A stretch of 45,484 bases of DNA. Origin: Singulisphaera sp. GP187 (GTDB taxonomy: Bacteria > Planctomycetota > Planctomycetia > Gemmatales > Gemmataceae). The notes beneath the pieces are model-generated. The model did no database searches. It was not told the origin of the DNA and saw only the letters and a program-made list of their open reading frames with translations. The translations under genes and the position numbers were made by a program. Each line of letters opens with the position of its first letter. Position 1 is the first letter of the stretch. Positions 18,059 through 31,334 of the stretch are shown one piece after another. The stretch covers positions 1-45,484 of the forward strand of contig CAMDQN010000048.1 of NCBI GenBank assembly GCA_945905925.1, read 5' to 3'.

Positions 18059-20380
18059 TCACTCGCCGACTTCGCGGAAGACGCGGTCAAACTGCGGAGC
18101 CACGCGAACGAACACGTCCAACAGCGACGGGTCGAAGTGGCCCGGCGAGCCGTCGGTCATGGTGAGCACGGTGGTGTGGTGCGACAGCCCCGGTTTGTAC
18201 ACACGCCGGCTCCGCAACGCGTCGTACACGTCAGCGATCGCAACCAGGCGCGCAACCAGCGGAATACTCTCACCAACGAGCCGATCCGGGTAACCGGTGC
18301 CGTCCCAGCGCTCGTGGTGACTCCTCGCGATGTCGATGGCAACGTGCAAAAACCCGGTCGCGAACGGGTGCTGGCGCGCTACCTCGCGCAACGTGTCCGC
18401 GCCGATAGTGGCGTGCGCCTGCATCAGGAGTCGCTCGCCCGCGTCGAGCGGGCCGGGCTTGTTCAGGATGTGGTCGGGCAGCGCCGCCTTGCCGATGTCG
18501 TGCAACGGAACCCCGTCTTCCAGCACGCGGATGAAGTTCCCGTCAATCGTGGTGGAGTAGGCGGGCAGGGCCGCGGCATCCTCCGCGAGAACACGGCAGT
18601 ACCGCTGCAACCGGAGCAGGTGTTTCCCGGTCTCTGCGGACCGGTGTTCCACCAGTTTCGCGAGCGCCAGCACCAAGCCGTTGCGGGCGCGGATCAGTTC
18701 GCCGTCGCGGGCCTCGATCACCTGTTCCAGTTCCGCGTTCACCGTGAGCAGTTCGCGGTTCAGCACGTCGTAGCGGTCCTGCGCGTCCTTCAACCTCAGT
18801 GCGGCCTTCACACGCGCTCGAAGTTGTACCACACTGAACGGTTTGGTGAGGAAATCGTCGGCCCCCGCGAGCATGATGCGGGACAGTTCGTCCCCACTCG
18901 CGGCCCCGGAAAACATCACGATCTTGAGGTTCCGCGTCGGCGGGCGCTGGCGCAGGCGCTTCAACACTTCTTCACCGCTGAACCCGGGCAAGTCCACGTC
19001 GAGCAATACGAGGTCGTAAGCGTGCTCGCTCGCACGCGCGACGGCGTCCGGCCCGTTACTGACTGCGTCGCACTCCAGCCCTTCGGCCCCGAGCGCGACG
19101 CAGCACAACCGGCGGATGTCCTGCTGATCGTCCACAATGAGAACGCGACCAAGCGCCGTGTGGGTGGTCGGGTGCAAAGCAACTTCCGCTGGCGCCGCGC
19201 GGGGTACGTTCGCGAGCGCTGCCGGTGCGAAGGACGGCACAACGACCGCAGGCAGCCCAACGTTGTGGGGAAGGAACGGGAACAAAGCCCGCATCGCGGC
19301 TTCTGCCGTGGCATACCGCTGTTCAGGGTCGGTGGCCATCATCTTACTAAAAACCGCGTCCAACCCAGCGGGCACGTCCGGGCGCCGCGCGCGGGCTGAC
19401 GGCGGTGGACCGAACGTCGCCATCACATCGCTGAACGGCGCTTGACCAGTGAGCGCGTAGAACAGCGTGCAACCCAGCCCGAACACGTCGGCCCGTGCAT
19501 CCACGGCATGGGCATTGCGTGACTGCTCCGGGGCCGTGTACCCCACGGTGCCGAGTTGCGCGCCGCTGCGCGTGATCTGCTGTTCGCCCGGCAGCCGCGC
19601 CAAACCGAAGTCAAGCAACTTCGCCGTCCCGTCGGGACTCACCAGGATGTTACTCGGTTTGATGTCGCGGTGAATCAGCCCGAGCCGGTGCGCCTCGATG
19701 AGCGCATCAGCAATCTGGTACCCGATCTGGCACACGAACTCGACCGGCAGTTGCCCGAGCGTCGCGACGCGTTCCAGGTCCACGCCCTGGAGGTACTCCA
19801 TCACGAAGTACGGCTGGGCGGGAACGTCCGGGCCGTGCGCCGGTTCCTCGCCCGCGTCGATGGCCACGACGATGTTCGGGTGCTTCAACCGCCCGACGGC
19901 CCGTGCTTCGACGAAGAACCGCGCGAGCAGGCTGGCGTTCACCTCTGGCGACGGCTTGAGCACCTTCACCGCGACGATGGTGCGCAACTGCCGGTGTTCG
20001 GCGCGGTACACGACGCCCATGCCACCGGCGCCGATGCGGTCGAGCAACCGGTAGTTGCCGAGCACCAACCCGTGGAGCTGCCCGGCACGCACGCGCGCGG
20101 CCTGGAACTCGGTCAACAAGTTGGTGCGAACGAGGGTATCGAGAAGGCGGTCGTCGGTCGAAGAGCGATCCACCGAGTCGCGGTCGTGCGGTTCGAGGAC
20201 CTCGTACTCTTCGCTCGAAACGACCCCACTCAGGAGGAGTCGCCACAAGAGTGGCGAAGTCGCCACTTCCGACCGGGACGGGTACGGAGTGACGGCCGAA
20301 AGGGGCGGATACGTGGAAGTACCCACGACTGACGAACTCCAGGTTAGCCGGTAGGCGATCCTTCGGGCGAAGTGATCCAT
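18059..20380 (-). CDS. Ser/Thr kinase - response regulator receiver - HD-GYP fusion
   Basis: 773 residues from the ATG at 20380 (a TTG at 20428 would add 16). After a variable leader comes the planctomycete kinase preamble ([26 protein letters not shown]) and a complete kinase domain (about 109-367): [16 protein letters not shown] Lys139, HRDIKPSN Asp239, DFG 257-259. A receiver domain (about 412-530) has acidic pair Asp417/418, phospho-acceptor Asp461 in LLDVDLPG and Lys513. A short coiled coil leads to an HD-GYP domain (about 570-765): LHDIGK with His627-Asp628 and [16 protein letters not shown] domains degrade cyclic di-GMP. One chain therefore joins Ser/Thr phosphorylation, aspartyl phosphorylation and probable second-messenger turnover. 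All key residues are present. It is monocistronic. Confidence 0.92.
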
Positions 20381-20699: not shown

Positions 20700-21389
20700 T
20701 TATCGCAATTTCATCTGCTTCAACAGTTCTTCGGTCCACGTGCGGGAAGCGTTGGTGAAGGGCACATCGGGCGGTGGCGCACCTTTGTAGTCGATCTGGT
20801 TCGCGAAGTTACCGAGATCGTAGGCGCGCACAAACGCGGCTTGAAGGTCGAGGAGCGCGTCGCGGTCGTCGGCCGCGAGCGGGACTTTGAACTTCGGCAA
20901 CTTCTTCTGGAGCGTGGACGTGTAAATCTCGTAGCGGTCGGGTGTGTTGGATCGCGTCACAGTGACTGCGTAGTCGTACTCTGGCAACCCGTCACGCGAA
21001 TACGTGAGCAGCGGCTTCCCCTGCATGATGAGATCGATCTCGACGATCCCGGCCTTCTGCTGAACGGCTTGTTGGCGCGCATCGAGATACGCTTGCCGAC
21101 CGGCGGGCGTGGTCTTGTTCGCGGGGCTGACCACTTCGAGCAGCGTGACCAGATCGCCATCGGTGCGGTTCCGAATCTCGATGTACTCCTCCGCATACTG
21201 TTCGCGGATGATCGACGTGAACAGCGGCGTTTCGGAAACGTAGGTGCGCGTGCCGACACGCGCGCGGTAGCGGTCCACGAGTCCCGGAAAGAGGATCTGG
21301 TAGAGGCACGCGAGCAACTGGTGCTGGAACGCGGGCCAGAGCTTCGGCGTTTCGAGGTACGGATCCATACCGGGAAACGGGCTGGGCAT
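20700..21389 (-). CDS. DUF4058 family protein
   Basis: 229 residues. The N-terminus MPSPFPGMDPYLETPKLWPAFQ is the diagnostic start of DUF4058, followed by IEIRNRTDGDLVTLLEVVSPANKTTPAGRQAYL and GIVEIDLIMQGKPLL. The arrangement E...E.(V/I)SP..K resembles a PD-(D/E)XK-like core, but no activity has been assigned to my knowledge. The family is common in planctomycetes and cyanobacteria. Its start faces the restriction-modification operon, with 237 bp in between. Confidence 0.88.
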   Translation of the reverse strand: MPSPFPGMDPYLETPKLWPAFQHQLLACLYQILFPGLVDRYRARVGTRTYVSETPLFTSIIREQYAEEYIEIRNRTDGDLVTLLEVVSPANKTTPAGRQAYLDARQQAVQQKAGIVEIDLIMQGKPLLTYSRDGLPEYDYAVTVTRSNTPDRYEIYTSTLQKKLPKFKVPLAADDRDALLDLQAAFVRAYDLGNFANQIDYKGAPPPDVPFTNASRTWTEELLKQMKLR

Positions 21390-21592
21390 CGAGGGTTTCT
21401 CCGTGGTGGCACCGGTTCCGTGTCAGGACGAGTTCGTGTCTCGACCGGCTCTACTGTACCCGCGAGGTGTGGCGGTAAGCATTGTAACGGATGGGCCGCC
21501 GCCGCGCGAAGAGTCGAAGTGGTGAGAAAGCGCGTTGCATCGGGAAACGAGATACCGGCGCGAAAGCGGGTTGTGTTAAGCTGTCGCCATGA

Positions 21593-21611
21593 GAGCTCAA
21601 CCGCAGAGCTC
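21593..21611. promoter_or_regulatory. Two GAGCTC palindromes before the methylase RBS (possible autoregulatory sites)
   Basis: GAGCTC occurs at 21593-21598 and 21606-21611, 13 bp apart centre to centre, in a direct repeat AGAGCTC. They immediately precede the GAAGGAG Shine-Dalgarno (21614-21620) of the methylase. They could be recognition sites of the linked methylase/nuclease or an operator. The specificity of the system is not known, so this is inference. Confidence 0.3.
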
Positions 21612-21626
21612 CCGAAGGAGTACCGA

Positions 21627-22541
21627 ATGGCCCGCCGACGGAACGCACCACCGCCAGTCGCGACAGCCCGAAGCGGGCGGAAGCTCATCGCCTTCGGGTG
21701 GTACGGCGGGAAGTATTCACACCTCGATTGGCTGTTGCCGCTCCTTCCGACGTGTCACCACTACTGCGAACCGTTCGCCGGGTCTGGCGCTGTCCTCATC
21801 AACCGACCGCCTTCGCCGGTCGAAACGTACAACGACCTCGATGGCGAAGTCGCCAACTTCTTTCGCGTTCTCCGCGACGAAAAAGAAGCTCTTGTCGAGA
21901 AGATCGGGCTGACGCCGTTTTCGCGCGAAGAATTCGGCCTCGCGTGTGAGGTGGACTCGTCGCTTTCGGCAGTCGAGCGCGCCCGCCGCTTTTACGTTCG
22001 AGCGCGCCAGGTTCGCACCGGTCTCGCACAGACTGCGAGCCTCGGTCGTTGGGCGAACTGCAAGGATACCAGCCGAGCCGGGATGAGCGGAGTTGTGAGC
22101 CGGTGGCTCGGCGGCGTCGAACAGTTACCGGAGATCGCGGACAGACTGCTCCGCGTGCAAATCGAAAACCGTCCCGCGCTCGACGTGATCCGGCTTTACG
22201 ACGCACCGACAACTCTGTTCTACTGCGATCCGCCATACATTCACGAAACCCGCGGCGACGACAAAGCCTACGGCCACGAAATGACTGACCACGCGCACCG
22301 AGAACTCGCAAAGGGTCTCAACGCGGTTAAAGGACTGGTTGCTCTCTCGAACTACGACTGCCCGCTCATGGCCGAGTTGTACCCGAAGCCGCGTTGGAAG
22401 AAACACGTTTCGGAAGCCCGCACCATCCACTCAACAAAAGACACGCGGGTCGAAGTTCTGTGGACGAATTACGACCCGAAGTCGGTCGCTATCCACCGGC
22501 ACAAGCAAGAACCTCAAGGGCTGTTCGATGACGCCGACTGA
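21627..22541 (+). CDS. D12-class DNA adenine-N6 methyltransferase
   Basis: 304 residues from the ATG at 21627, with GAAGGAG six bases upstream; the longer open frame overlaps the divergent DUF4058 gene. FGWYGGKYSHLDWLLPLLP and CEPFAGSGAVLINRP form the SAM-binding motifs (D12 family WxGGK and PFxGSG), and YNDLDGEVANFFRVLR follows. Catalytic motif IV is DPPY at residues 201-204. ALSNYDCPLMAELYP and VLWTNY lie near the end. Such enzymes methylate adenine N6 in a short site. The stop overlaps the next gene by 14 bases, so the two are translationally coupled. The neighbour is a probable nuclease, so this is probably a restriction-modification methylase rather than a housekeeping Dam. Confidence 0.92.
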   Translation: MARRRNAPPPVATARSGRKLIAFGWYGGKYSHLDWLLPLLPTCHHYCEPFAGSGAVLINRPPSPVETYNDLDGEVANFFRVLRDEKEALVEKIGLTPFSREEFGLACEVDSSLSAVERARRFYVRARQVRTGLAQTASLGRWANCKDTSRAGMSGVVSRWLGGVEQLPEIADRLLRVQIENRPALDVIRLYDAPTTLFYCDPPYIHETRGDDKAYGHEMTDHAHRELAKGLNAVKGLVALSNYDCPLMAELYPKPRWKKHVSEARTIHSTKDTRVEVLWTNYDPKSVAIHRHKQEPQGLFDDAD

Positions 22542-23658
22542 ATTGCTTGAGGAGGTACTCGCCACGGCTCAAGCCGATCCCGATGCTTGGGCCGTTATCG
22601 AGCAAGAAAACCAAGACCGGATCGATCGTGTCGCACGCGACACGCGCAACCGGGCCTGTGTCCGCTTGGTTCTGGCGTGCATGTTGGCGAAGATGCATCA
22701 ACCGATGGTCGATCCGCGCCGACCCTACACGGAAATATCGGAACCCGGAACATTCTCCGGACGCTCCTATGATGAAGGCTATTTGTCAGCCCTCATTCAA
22801 GCTCACCGACTACCGGTCAACTCCACGACTGCGTTCCTGACACCGGCGCTTCGCAACATCGACTACACGCTGACGCCCGACAAAGCAGTGATCGGACGTC
22901 CGCGCGAGTTGTACGCCGACGCGCTCCACCTCCTCGAAGAAGTAGCGGATGACCGTGAAACGGCGGAAGCGGTGCTGCTCGATACCTTTCGCGTGCTGCT
23001 GCGTCTGCGTGCCGAAAGAGATGCACAACTCGCCGCGCTACAAGCTTCGTTGCGCCCAACGGGCGCGACGATTCCGCTTTCCTCCGAAGGCATCGTTAAC
23101 CTTCTCCAGCAGCACCTCGCTTGCCCGCACTCCAGTCGGTTGCCCGTGCTGATTGTGAGCGCTGCGTACCAAGCCGTCTGCGCGTTGCTCGGTGAGCAGG
23201 CAAAACCGCTCTCATCTCACAACGCCGCCGACGAACAAACGGGCGCTGGCGGGGACGTTGAAATCTGCCTGACTTCCGACGAAAAGGTTCTCACGGTCTA
23301 CGAGATGAAGCGAAAGGCTGTGACAATCTGGGACATCAACCACGCAATCGAGAAACTGCCACGTCTACCCGCGCTCCACAACTACATCTTTGTGACAACG
23401 GACGCCATCGACCCCACGGTGCGCGAGTATGCTTCGAGTGTCTATCAAACAACCAACGGCATTGAGTTCGCGATCCTCGATTGCTTGGGCTTCGTGCGGC
23501 ACTTCCTCCACTTGTTCCACCGGCACCGCGTCGCGTTTCTCGACGCGTATCAAGCCCTTGTGTTGAGCGCGGCAGACAGCGCGGTAAGCTTCGCTCTCAA
23601 ACAAGCGTTTCTGGCTTTGCGCCAAGCGTCGATGGTCGAGCCAGAAACGGAAGCGTAG
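22528..23658 (+). CDS. Probable type II restriction endonuclease (PD-(D/E)XK type, possibly SacI-like)
   Basis: 376 residues from the ATG at 22528, inside the methylase stop region. The N-terminal half is helical and contains MVDPRRPYTEISEPGTFSGRSYDEGYLSALI. The C-terminal half has a nuclease-like core: Asp243 in GGDVEICL, then Glu259-Met-Lys261 in TVYEMKRKAVTIWDINHAIEKL, which fits D-(x)n-E-x-K, followed by strand NYIFVTTDAI. The pairing with a methylase and the general layout recall the SacI family, from memory and not verified. Codon use looks less GC-biased than in the neighbours (many codons ending in T or A), consistent with recent transfer. The gene ends 7 bp before the stop of cysK on the other strand. 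Confidence 0.7.
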   Translation: MTPTELLEEVLATAQADPDAWAVIEQENQDRIDRVARDTRNRACVRLVLACMLAKMHQPMVDPRRPYTEISEPGTFSGRSYDEGYLSALIQAHRLPVNSTTAFLTPALRNIDYTLTPDKAVIGRPRELYADALHLLEEVADDRETAEAVLLDTFRVLLRLRAERDAQLAALQASLRPTGATIPLSSEGIVNLLQQHLACPHSSRLPVLIVSAAYQAVCALLGEQAKPLSSHNAADEQTGAGGDVEICLTSDEKVLTVYEMKRKAVTIWDINHAIEKLPRLPALHNYIFVTTDAIDPTVREYASSVYQTTNGIEFAILDCLGFVRHFLHLFHRHRVAFLDAYQALVLSAADSAVSFALKQAFLALRQASMVEPETEA

Positions 23659-29055: not shown

Positions 29056-31116
29056 TTAGGCATGCTCTCTCGTGTGCTTCGACAGCGCGTCAGCGACTTC
29101 CGCGGCGGAGCGGAACCGCTGCGCCGGGTTCTTGTCGAGGAGTCGCATCACGATCGCTTCGAGCCATACGGGAAGATCGAAGCGGACCTGTTTGAACGGG
29201 GCGGGAGTCGCCGAACAGACCGCGTAGAGGACGGCCGCTAACACGTTCCCCGGGAAGGGCGGGTTCCCCGTACAGAGCGAGTAGAACACGCCGCCGAGGC
29301 TGAATAGGTCCGACGCCACACTCGCGGGCTGACACTGAATCAACTCGGGCGCCAAAAAGTATGGCGTACCCACAATCGCTCCGGTCTGCGATAACTTCAC
29401 GTCGCTCCCGTTCTGCGCCAGGCCGAAGTCCGCGATCTTTGCGGTGTCCGATGCTTGTTCCAGAATGATGTTCGCGGGCTTGATGTCGCGGTGAATGATT
29501 CCCTTCTTGTGGGCCGCCGACAAGCCGAGCGCGATCTGCCGCGCGATCCTGGTGATCGTAGCAATGGGCAATGGGCCGCTCTTCTGGATGTACCGGTCCA
29601 GACAGGTACCCTGGACGTACTCCATCGCGAGATACCCGAGACCAGCGACCTCGCGCACCGCGTAAATGGTGACCACGTTCTCGTGTTGGATCGCGGCCCC
29701 GGCGCGCGCCTCGCGCGAGAAGCGATCACGCGCCACCGGGTCGGAAAAGGTCTTGGCCCCGAGCATCTTGATCGCCACGAACCGGGCCAGGCTCGGTTCG
29801 TAACCCTTGAACACGACCCCCATCGCCCCGCGCCCGAGAACCTCGCGCAGTTCGTAGTCCCCCAACCGGCACCCAGATGTGGGGAACTGTTCGAGGAATC
29901 CCGGGCGGAACTCGGGAATGGTGGGAATTGTGGGAATTGTGGTACCGATGCCGTGCGTGATTTGCCCGCCAGTAAAGCGTGCGAGGTCCTCGGAGGGGCT
30001 CACGTCGGCGCGCGGTCGTAGGGCGCTTGGGGCCACCGGTCGTACCGGACGAGGTTCCGCGGGGGGAGGGGTGGTGACGCCGACGCGGCGCAGCCGGGGC
30101 GTTGCCACCGGCCCGCTCATCCGGGCCCGGTTGGTCTCCACCGCGAGATTGACCATCTCCTGTCCACCGGCTGCGAGCGTCTCGGCAAAGTTCGGACAGT
30201 CACGCACGTCCCGGTTCAGCAACTCGCCGAACTCGGTGATCTTGGGGGCGATGCCCTGGATAAACGAGATGAGTTCCGGTTTCGGAAGCCTGTACTGCGT
30301 TCGAGCCACGTCGAGGACGTACTCCAACACGTTCGGGTGGCGAGCAAGAACATCGATGTTCGCGATCAACCCGGCGAAGCAGAGCAACTCGGCCCGGCGG
30401 CTCATGGCCTTCTCGGTCCCGTCGAGCCGCTCCGGGTTGTGGTGATACCGGATTGGTTCGACGATTTCCGCCGGGAGCTTCCAGATCGTGAGCAGTTCGG
30501 CGCTCACCTCCGCGTGGTTGACGCCGAACGTTTCTTCTTCGACCTCGCACGGTTGGGCGAGGAGTCGGTCCCCCCAGCGCGCCGTCATGTCGCGCCAGGC
30601 GTCGGGGTAGGCCTGTTGGAGCAGTACCGCGCCAAGGTCGCGGAGCAATCCCGCGACCATATCGTCGGCGGGGGAGGTGCCCGGCATCCGAGCGGAGATG
30701 TCTCGCGCTATGATCGCCCCCGCGACCGAGGTAATCTGGTAGGCGCGCGTTTCGGGGTCCGACGGTCCGGATTTGATCGCGGGCATCGACAGACCCAGCG
30801 CGAGCGAGCGTACCGGACCGAGGCCCAATACGGTGATGGCACGCTCCAACGACGCGATCGGCTTGCTGAGTCCGTACAGGCAGGAGTTGACTGCCTTCAG
30901 AAGTTTCGCGCACAGACCAGGGTCTTGCGAAATGAGCTTCACGATCTCGTTCGGGTCACAGTCGGGGCGGCTCGCGGCGCTGACCACCTGGAGCGCCACG
31001 GCTGGCGGGGTCGGGAGGCGGCGCGGGTCGAGTACAACCGCGAGTACGTCGTCGCGCCGGAGCGAGTGGACGCTGCTCGTGGCTAGTGTGGGGAGCGTAA
31101 TAGACACCAATGCCAT
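29056..31116 (-). CDS. HDOD domain - Ser/Thr kinase fusion
   Basis: 686 residues from the ATG at 31116; upstream extension starts with a TTG and is not needed. The N-terminal 280 residues form an HDOD domain: LPTPPAVALQVVSAASRPDCDPNEIVKLISQDPGLCAKLLKAVNS and VLGLGPVRSLALGL, with degenerate LLRDLG replacing the HD pair, then FGVNHAEVSAELLTIWKLP. A low-complexity linker contains TIPTIPTIPE. The kinase domain occupies about 418-680 with LGRGAMGVVFKG, Lys450, HRDIKPAN (Asp544), DFG (563-565) and GTPYFLAPE; no membrane segment is visible. HDOD domains bind or scaffold other signalling proteins. The combination is a soluble kinase whose N-terminal half probably senses a partner or nucleotide. Confidence 0.92.
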   Translation of the reverse strand: MALVSITLPTLATSSVHSLRRDDVLAVVLDPRRLPTPPAVALQVVSAASRPDCDPNEIVKLISQDPGLCAKLLKAVNSCLYGLSKPIASLERAITVLGLGPVRSLALGLSMPAIKSGPSDPETRAYQITSVAGAIIARDISARMPGTSPADDMVAGLLRDLGAVLLQQAYPDAWRDMTARWGDRLLAQPCEVEEETFGVNHAEVSAELLTIWKLPAEIVEPIRYHHNPERLDGTEKAMSRRAELLCFAGLIANIDVLARHPNVLEYVLDVARTQYRLPKPELISFIQGIAPKITEFGELLNRDVRDCPNFAETLAAGGQEMVNLAVETNRARMSGPVATPRLRRVGVTTPPPAEPRPVRPVAPSALRPRADVSPSEDLARFTGGQITHGIGTTIPTIPTIPEFRPGFLEQFPTSGCRLGDYELREVLGRGAMGVVFKGYEPSLARFVAIKMLGAKTFSDPVARDRFSREARAGAAIQHENVVTIYAVREVAGLGYLAMEYVQGTCLDRYIQKSGPLPIATITRIARQIALGLSAAHKKGIIHRDIKPANIILEQASDTAKIADFGLAQNGSDVKLSQTGAIVGTPYFLAPELIQCQPASVASDLFSLGGVFYSLCTGNPPFPGNVLAAVLYAVCSATPAPFKQVRFDLPVWLEAIVMRLLDKNPAQRFRSAAEVADALSKHTREHA

Positions 31117-31334
31117 TCTTCGCACCTGCGACTGCGGTGCAAACACAACGTAGATACGCAAATGTTGGTCACGAAGGGGTGGCTGTCAATCGGTTCGGGG
31201 CGCTGGGCGGAACCGGCGCTGGTAAGACGTGGGGGGAATTCAGTTTACGGTCGCAGCTTTCCGTCCCGACCAAGTCATGTGATCAACGTGCCGCGCACTT
31301 TTGGTTTTCGCACGGCCCGCTCCGTTTTCGGCTT

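Follow-up and report, generated by a model that had tools for sequence, protein, structure and literature searches.

Ser/Thr phosphorylation, two-component phosphotransfer and cyclic-di-GMP (c-di-GMP) are usually investigated as networks of their own, whose crosstalk is indirect. The described proteins that come closest to the one analyzed here are REC-HD-GYP regulators such as RpfG, PA4781 and the NosR type, in which a receiver domain (REC) is followed by an HD-GYP domain, and PmGH, which carries a different N-terminal part ahead of its HD-GYP domain. To our knowledge, the inputs of planctomycete Ser/Thr kinases are largely unknown. Planctomycetes encode 98 to 140 of these kinases per proteome, with 307 architectures in the kinase survey; the terms 'receiver' and 'HD domain' are absent from its main text, and the architecture described below may stand uncommented in its supplementary architecture tables (PMC11032199).

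In PmGH, the metals are held by E185, H189, H221, D222, H250, H276, H277 and D305, with D222 bridging the G and M sites and Y285 close to the G-site; R314 and K317 touch a guanine, and the protein was crystallised with c-di-GMP having the G-site iron as its sole remaining metal (accessible portion of PMC4159591). Which of H250, H276 and H277 serve as G-site ligands is something we infer. Variants of D183 (to Ala) and of K225 are inactive; the two residues are needed for activity and, in the same portion of the report, are not stated as defining the E/D-T-G trinuclear subgroup (PMC4159591). HD-GYP domains can also act as pure, non-hydrolysing c-di-GMP receptors, as in DvhD, a PAS-HD-GYP membrane receptor in which SQ replaces HD and MN replaces HH and which binds c-di-GMP metal-free (available text of PMC13090378). 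c-di-GMP likewise sets the kinase activity of CckA, ShkA and RavS, which, unlike the family described here, are histidine kinases, and no Hanks-type kinase is named as c-di-GMP-regulated in the available part of that source (PMC12189002). The accessible portions of the open-access literature searched yielded no described Ser/Thr kinase directly controlled by c-di-GMP.

Here we analyzed a window of 45,484 nucleotides from Singulisphaera sp. GP187 (contig CAMDQN010000048.1), in which one gene adds an intact N-terminal Hanks-type kinase to the REC-HD-GYP order. We name the family to which its protein, P0001, belongs KRH, for kinase-receiver-HD-GYP; L-numbers denote loci and G-numbers genomes, G000 being the source genome.

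Reading frame, domains and active sites of P0001

The gene occupies 18059..20380 on the minus strand as a single open frame running from an ATG at 20380 through 773 amino acids and a stop; the coordinates of the initial annotation were correct, and the strand, which it had not given, is minus. P0001 and its three same-genus orthologues share a GTG, residue 19 of the frame (nt 20326), and in two of the orthologues an in-frame stop lies two codons 5' of it, so that GTG 20326 is likelier to be the start than ATG 20380, giving a protein of ~755 aa. The highest Kyte-Doolittle 19-residue window reaches 1.63 and lies inside a Pro/Ala-rich linker predicted to be disordered, and the earlier description of the protein as soluble is plausible from this hydropathy profile.

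Pfam places Pkinase at residues 110–361 (4.7e-41), Response_reg at 413–525 (2.3e-25) and HD_5 at 626–753 (8.6e-23). Ahead of the kinase lies an N-terminal helical region (residues 41–104; 20069..20260, minus strand) of five predicted helices (pLDDT ~90) belonging to no Pfam family; a search of the source genome at E 0.001 recovered it in P0001 and the paralogue at C20 only, leaving the idea that it is a general module of this genome's kinases unsupported at that threshold. The Hanks-type Ser/Thr kinase domain (residues 110–361; 19298..20053, minus strand) has the kinase fold with the VAxK lysine K139, E158, HRD 237–239, N244, DFG 257–259 and APE 283–285, and its model aligns with Mycobacterium tuberculosis PknB (5u94) at Z 31.9 and rmsd 1.7 over 253 residues. 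P0001 thus resembles PknB-type kinases in fold and catalytic set, with a match to the NCBIfam PknB_PASTA_kin model below the cut-off; unlike them, it has no Pfam PASTA match, carries a C-terminal REC-HD-GYP half and shows no clear transmembrane segment by hydropathy. PADLOC PD-T4-6, an anti-phage kinase, gave many matches to the kinase domain of P0001, and PDLC04055 spans residues 71–533, covering kinase and REC.

The receiver domain (residues 413–525; 18806..19144, minus strand) contains the acidic pocket D417/D418, the phospho-acceptor D461, S491 and K513. It is followed by a predicted helical linker (residues 527–575; 18656..18802, minus strand) with helices at 517–555 and 561–580 and a pLDDT of 45–76 for residues 531–580, and by the HD-GYP domain (residues 576–770; 18071..18655, minus strand) with E583, H587, H627, D628, K631, H656, H688, H689, GYP 696–698, D717, R726 and K729. 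In a letter-by-letter check, each residue cited in the initial annotation (K139, D239, DFG 257–259, D461, H627-D628 and GYP 696–698) was found.

As the fold search with the whole protein listed kinases only, the HD-GYP domain was modeled and searched separately. Its model (pLDDT 89, pTM 0.87) matched PA4781 (4r8z; Z 31.2, rmsd 1.9, 213 aligned) and PmGH (4mcw; Z 27.8, rmsd 2.2, 198 aligned) best, with DvhD (9rbz; Z 23.0, rmsd 2.4, 194 aligned) third, and PA4781 4r8z was also the best PDB match by sequence (E 4.3e-50). When aligned with PmGH, P0001 has all eight metal ligands (E583, H587, H627, D628, H656, H688, H689 and D717), GYP 696–698, the ETG 583–585 of the E/D-T-G subgroup, K631 as the equivalent of K225, and equivalents of R314 and K317. 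It differs from PmGH in having Ser581 at the position of D183, where Asp is present in 10/37 members of the main lineage of the family, and in having kinase and REC ahead of HD-GYP. The claim that all catalytic residues are visible therefore goes a little too far: the eight ligands and K631 are present, and Ser581 is the exception. Because of this replacement, hydrolysis of c-di-GMP by P0001 is likely, not assured.

An AlphaFold model of the full-length protein, built on a 16-sequence alignment (mean pLDDT 75.5, pTM 0.45), lays out the five-helix N-terminus, the kinase, a linker at 372–408 (pLDDT <50), REC, the helical linker and the HD-GYP helices; with a pTM of 0.45, the placement and coupling of the domains cannot be read from it.

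Distribution and history of the KRH family

Matches running from kinase through HD-GYP were present in 41 of the 61 sampled Gemmataceae genomes (source genome included), and five of the carriers are single-contig assemblies (G001, G008, G032, G043 and G051). Together the 61 genomes contain 72 matching places, 5 of them kinase-less; of the other 67, we analyzed 59 (the 8 left out include G054:C136, which is partial with a stop) alongside the five kinase-less ones. A few rows are irregular: the kinase of L024 is interrupted by one TAG, L035 has a stop near the end, L033 begins at a contig end, and in L010 and L011 the stop lies only upstream of the likely start. The source genome alone has 111 places that match P0001 at E up to 0.001, mostly, judging by query range, in the kinase domain.

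Outside Gemmataceae, the three-part architecture was not found where the rest of the phylum and two other phyla were sampled. The screen covered frames of at least ~600 aa (plus L218 with 597, L219 with 513 and L220 with 593) among E-value-limited matches, in which a kinase was sought by blastp with the P0001 kinase alone, a single query that distant kinases could escape. Among the matches listed, a kinase was found in 0/14 long REC-HD-GYP frames from the phylum (246 genomes, source genome included), 0/5 from the phylum of G453 (Myxococcales; 140 genomes) and 0/4 from the phylum of G452 (Acidobacteria; 119 genomes). For 13 further genomes reached through named loci, the single frame inspected among the matches listed (L219) had no kinase, and one of these genomes, G462 (Gemmata), gave three long-frame KRH-like matches, as expected. 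A full-length query of 392 phylum genomes (source genome included; E up to 1e-90, 2 candidates scored per genome) returned the source genome only. Scanning genome contigs with generic kinase and receiver patterns, which we do not count as evidence of absence, returned one KRH member (L038) among the matches listed, the rest being partial kinase, receiver or HD matches.

The initial annotation knew of no described example of this order. With none outside the family in the samples searched and no description of a three-part KRH protein found in the open-access full-text literature, which is not proof of absence, the architecture does not qualify as common and characterized; what had looked like a one-off is a conserved family. 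The placement of the kinase N-terminal to the receiver was confirmed and is not unique, as the source genome also encodes a kinase-REC-REC protein (L210; 863-2344, minus strand, G000:C168). Its frame lies near a contig end and is devoid of the kinase N-lobe (Pfam match from profile position 110), and its kinase falls outside the KRH kinase clade.

In a tree of the REC-HD-GYP half, the 64 rows (59 members and 5 kinase-less relatives) form one clade (100*) against the 12 best phylum matches as outgroup. In a tree of the kinase, a branch (99*) separates all 59 from 22 further kinase rows of the source genome, two pairs of which are the same gene in overlapping loci; a long-branch warning applies to this tree. 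Both are quick trees of rows selected by similarity to P0001. An 11-member clade with degenerate HD-GYP domains appears in both trees (100* and 99*), as does the ten-member core of another clade, B1 (99* and 100*), which an eleventh row, L197, joins in the REC-HD-GYP tree only (91). The kinase-less L132–L136 are nested within the KRH clade, which implies three changes, at least two of them forced by starred branches; these REC-HD-GYP proteins have up to 75% REC identity and are apparent secondary kinase losses. Since the trees of both halves fit it, the simplest history would be a single ancient fusion near the base of Gemmataceae, with duplication and a small number of kinase losses thereafter.

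Unequal conservation and the HD-degenerate clade

To compare the three parts, we scored sets of 8 kinase, 4 REC and 9 (strict) HD-GYP residues in the 59 members, P0001 included. Intact sets were counted in 58 members for the kinase, 49 for REC and 30 for HD-GYP (strict), and 22 members, among them P0001, have all three. The main lineage (37 members) has 36 intact kinase, 37 REC and 19 strict HD-GYP sets, the last count rising to 25/37 under a looser rule that considers the eight ligands only and allows Asp for E583. Outside it, REC is intact in 12/22 members: B1 (11 members) has 11 intact kinase, 4 REC and 11 HD-GYP sets, and the HD-degenerate clade 11, 8 and 0, respectively. The sequence order kinase, REC, HD-GYP is fixed in all 59 members, as are D628, H656, H688 and H689. 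Given 58 intact kinase sets versus 49 for REC and 30 for HD-GYP, the kinase is, on the residue patterns, the part retained by selection. The sole member with a broken kinase set, L037 (glycine loop, K139 and HRD altered), has intact REC and HD-GYP sets and represents a pseudokinase version.

In 8/9 within-subclade pairs, the dN/dS values of kinase, REC and HD-GYP are ≤0.21 (one value was not estimable); the ninth pair, L164/L167, gave 0.30–0.55. Between P0001 and its paralogue in the source genome, L002, dN/dS is 0.40–0.57.

L002 belongs to the HD-degenerate clade. In PmGH numbering, this sister clade has lost D183, E185, D305 and K225 in 11/11 members, H189 in 9/11 and H221 in 8/11, and has kept D222, H250, H276, H277, GYP and I294 in 11/11 and R314 in 10/11, with Arg for K317 in 11/11; in P0001 numbering, E583 and K631 are absent from all 11. 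Of 59 otherwise conserved HD-GYP columns, 38 are kept in ≥10/11 members and 8 in ≤3, the latter being H587, H627 and D717 together with R580, Q592, D636, F677 and K729 (Arg instead). As five of these eight are non-ligands, the losses are not limited to the metal site. The HD-GYP domain of this clade is under constraint, as indicated by dN/dS values of 0.15, 0.09 and 0.11 in three pairs (0.39 in L164/L167).

Because PmGH bound c-di-GMP with the G-site iron alone, the residue pattern of the HD-degenerate clade fits a binding-only receptor. DvhD offers a precedent, its likeness consisting in lost catalytic residues, bound c-di-GMP and mobile helical stalks (9rbz; available text of PMC13090378); unlike DvhD, the KRH sister clade retains D628, H656, H688, H689 and GYP. 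Breakdown of c-di-GMP, which the initial annotation had called probable for the window protein, where it is plausible despite the Ser at the D183 position, seems unlikely in this clade. We tentatively suggest that the KRH family includes c-di-GMP-gated Hanks-type Ser/Thr kinases, with the sister clade binding the messenger and the enzyme-like P0001 pairing with the receptor-like L002, a proposal that could well prove wrong: it sits uneasily with the 38/59 conserved columns that are kept anyway and with the five non-ligand columns among those lost.

Genomic surroundings and the direction of signalling

Directly upstream of the KRH gene lies a DUF4058 gene (20703..21389, minus strand; Pfam PF13267, 2e-56), which is also directly 5' of the KRH gene in the six nearest relatives examined (L143–L148). 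An arginine decarboxylase gene lies downstream of the window gene and within ~4 kb in L143, L144 and L148. Other genes of the window include an HDOD domain (6.8e-50) N-terminal to a Ser/Thr kinase (8e-49) at 29059-31161 (minus strand), and, at 20841-23658 (plus strand), a possible restriction-modification pair made up of a D12-class adenine methyltransferase (PF02086; PADLOC type II MTase, 1.5e-54) and an adjacent 439-aa frame that matched nothing in Pfam or PADLOC.

With single-protein queries, from which distant relatives may escape, no histidine kinase or GGDEF match was found in the window (two histidine-kinase queries) or beside KRH in the three same-genus orthologues. We examined 33 contexts, some of which end at contig ends. 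In raw counts from single-protein queries with no random-window baseline, a same-strand histidine-kinase gene adjoins KRH in 3/16 contexts of the main lineage and in 0/17 contexts of two other subclades, where L226 has one weak match (25%) ~3 kb away. The three cases are a PAS-HisKA-HATPase gene upstream in L153, an HDOD-HisKA-HATPase-REC gene upstream with abutting frames in L224, and a HisKA-HATPase-REC gene downstream in L157. Two of these clusters also contain a GGDEF gene, a divergent HDOD-GGDEF gene in L224 and a REC-PAS-GGDEF-EAL gene in L157, both loci being from genome G021. HDOD, found ahead of a kinase in the window, thus also heads the hybrid histidine kinase and the GGDEF protein beside KRH in L224.

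The source genome has 2 GGDEF places with GGEEF, 4 HD_5 and 2 PilZ places. One of the GGDEF places (L141; 1415-2410, minus strand, G000:C57) encodes a protein whose N-terminal part we take, by eye, to be FHA-like. As a contrast between carriers and non-carriers, the presence of GGDEF is uninformative, with a match in 60/61 family genomes.

The mechanism we favor, to which we give an even chance, is that a REC-HD-GYP module fed by a histidine kinase hydrolyses or senses c-di-GMP and gates the Hanks-type kinase. A histidine kinase would phosphorylate the receiver at Asp461, which would alter the helical linker and the HD-GYP domain; the latter would hydrolyse c-di-GMP in P0001 and merely bind it in the sister clade. 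The state of the REC-HD-GYP half, together with c-di-GMP, would then gate the N-terminal kinase, the constant output, which would phosphorylate Ser/Thr targets. The direction of signalling, the activities, the gating by the linker and the substrates are what we infer from sequence. We favor the kinase as the constant output on the ground that 58/59 members, including all 11 with ruined phosphodiesterase sites, have it intact. A two-component input to the receiver is supported by the histidine-kinase genes beside KRH in some relatives and by the 37/37 intact REC sets of the main lineage, and the link to c-di-GMP by the GGDEF genes in two of those clusters and by the GGDEF, HD_5 and PilZ places of the source genome. 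Several observations weigh against this mechanism, namely that the REC-HD-GYP half can stand alone, as in the five kinase-less relatives, that the window and the three same-genus orthologue contexts gave no histidine-kinase or GGDEF match with single-protein queries, that Ser581 replaces D183 and the strict HD-GYP set is absent in 18/37 main-lineage members, and that dN/dS between the paralogues is raised to the values given above.

Signalling in the reverse direction, with the kinase as input, autophosphorylating and modifying the receiver or linker in cis, and HD-GYP as the output that lowers c-di-GMP, is an unlikely though serious contender. The C-terminal half resembles an effector module that is complete in itself, as the NCBIfam NosR-family REC-HD-GYP model (NF053512) matches residues 413–764, with 128.9 bits, below its cut-off of 400, and the kinase-less relatives keep exactly this half. 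P0001 itself has the eight PmGH ligands and the K225 equivalent, and in B1, where the strict HD-GYP set is intact in 11/11 and the REC set broken in 7/11, the kinase alone could drive the enzyme. However, the eleven members of the HD-degenerate clade, none of which has the strict HD-GYP set, retain an intact kinase, which must therefore act beyond driving a phosphodiesterase, and the kinase is the most retained part of all. The wiring may differ between subclades.

It is considerably less probable that the chain merely keeps three independent activities together, co-localised and not allosterically coupled. Such an arrangement would be in keeping with the predicted low-confidence linker at 372–408 and with the tolerance of kinase loss among relatives; the order fixed in 59 members, and the retention of the kinase in entire clades whose REC or HD-GYP has decayed, suggest coupling. 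That P0001 is an assembly or sequencing fusion, as the initial annotation had considered, or a decaying gene is hardly conceivable, as independent genomes (41/61, five of them in single contigs) carry the architecture and dN/dS between P0001 and its same-genus orthologue L009 is 0.09–0.21 across the three domains.

The domains themselves are known, and the fixed three-part architecture and the split into enzyme-like and receptor-like members appear to be new. If the reading of the two paralogues is true, an enzyme-like and a receptor-like protein would set and read the same messenger, feeding Ser/Thr phosphorylation. Should members of the receptor-like clade bind c-di-GMP and their kinases respond, a Ser/Thr kinase would be directly under c-di-GMP control. 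As a conserved family that fuses all three signalling currencies, KRH would make their crosstalk testable in a single purified protein.
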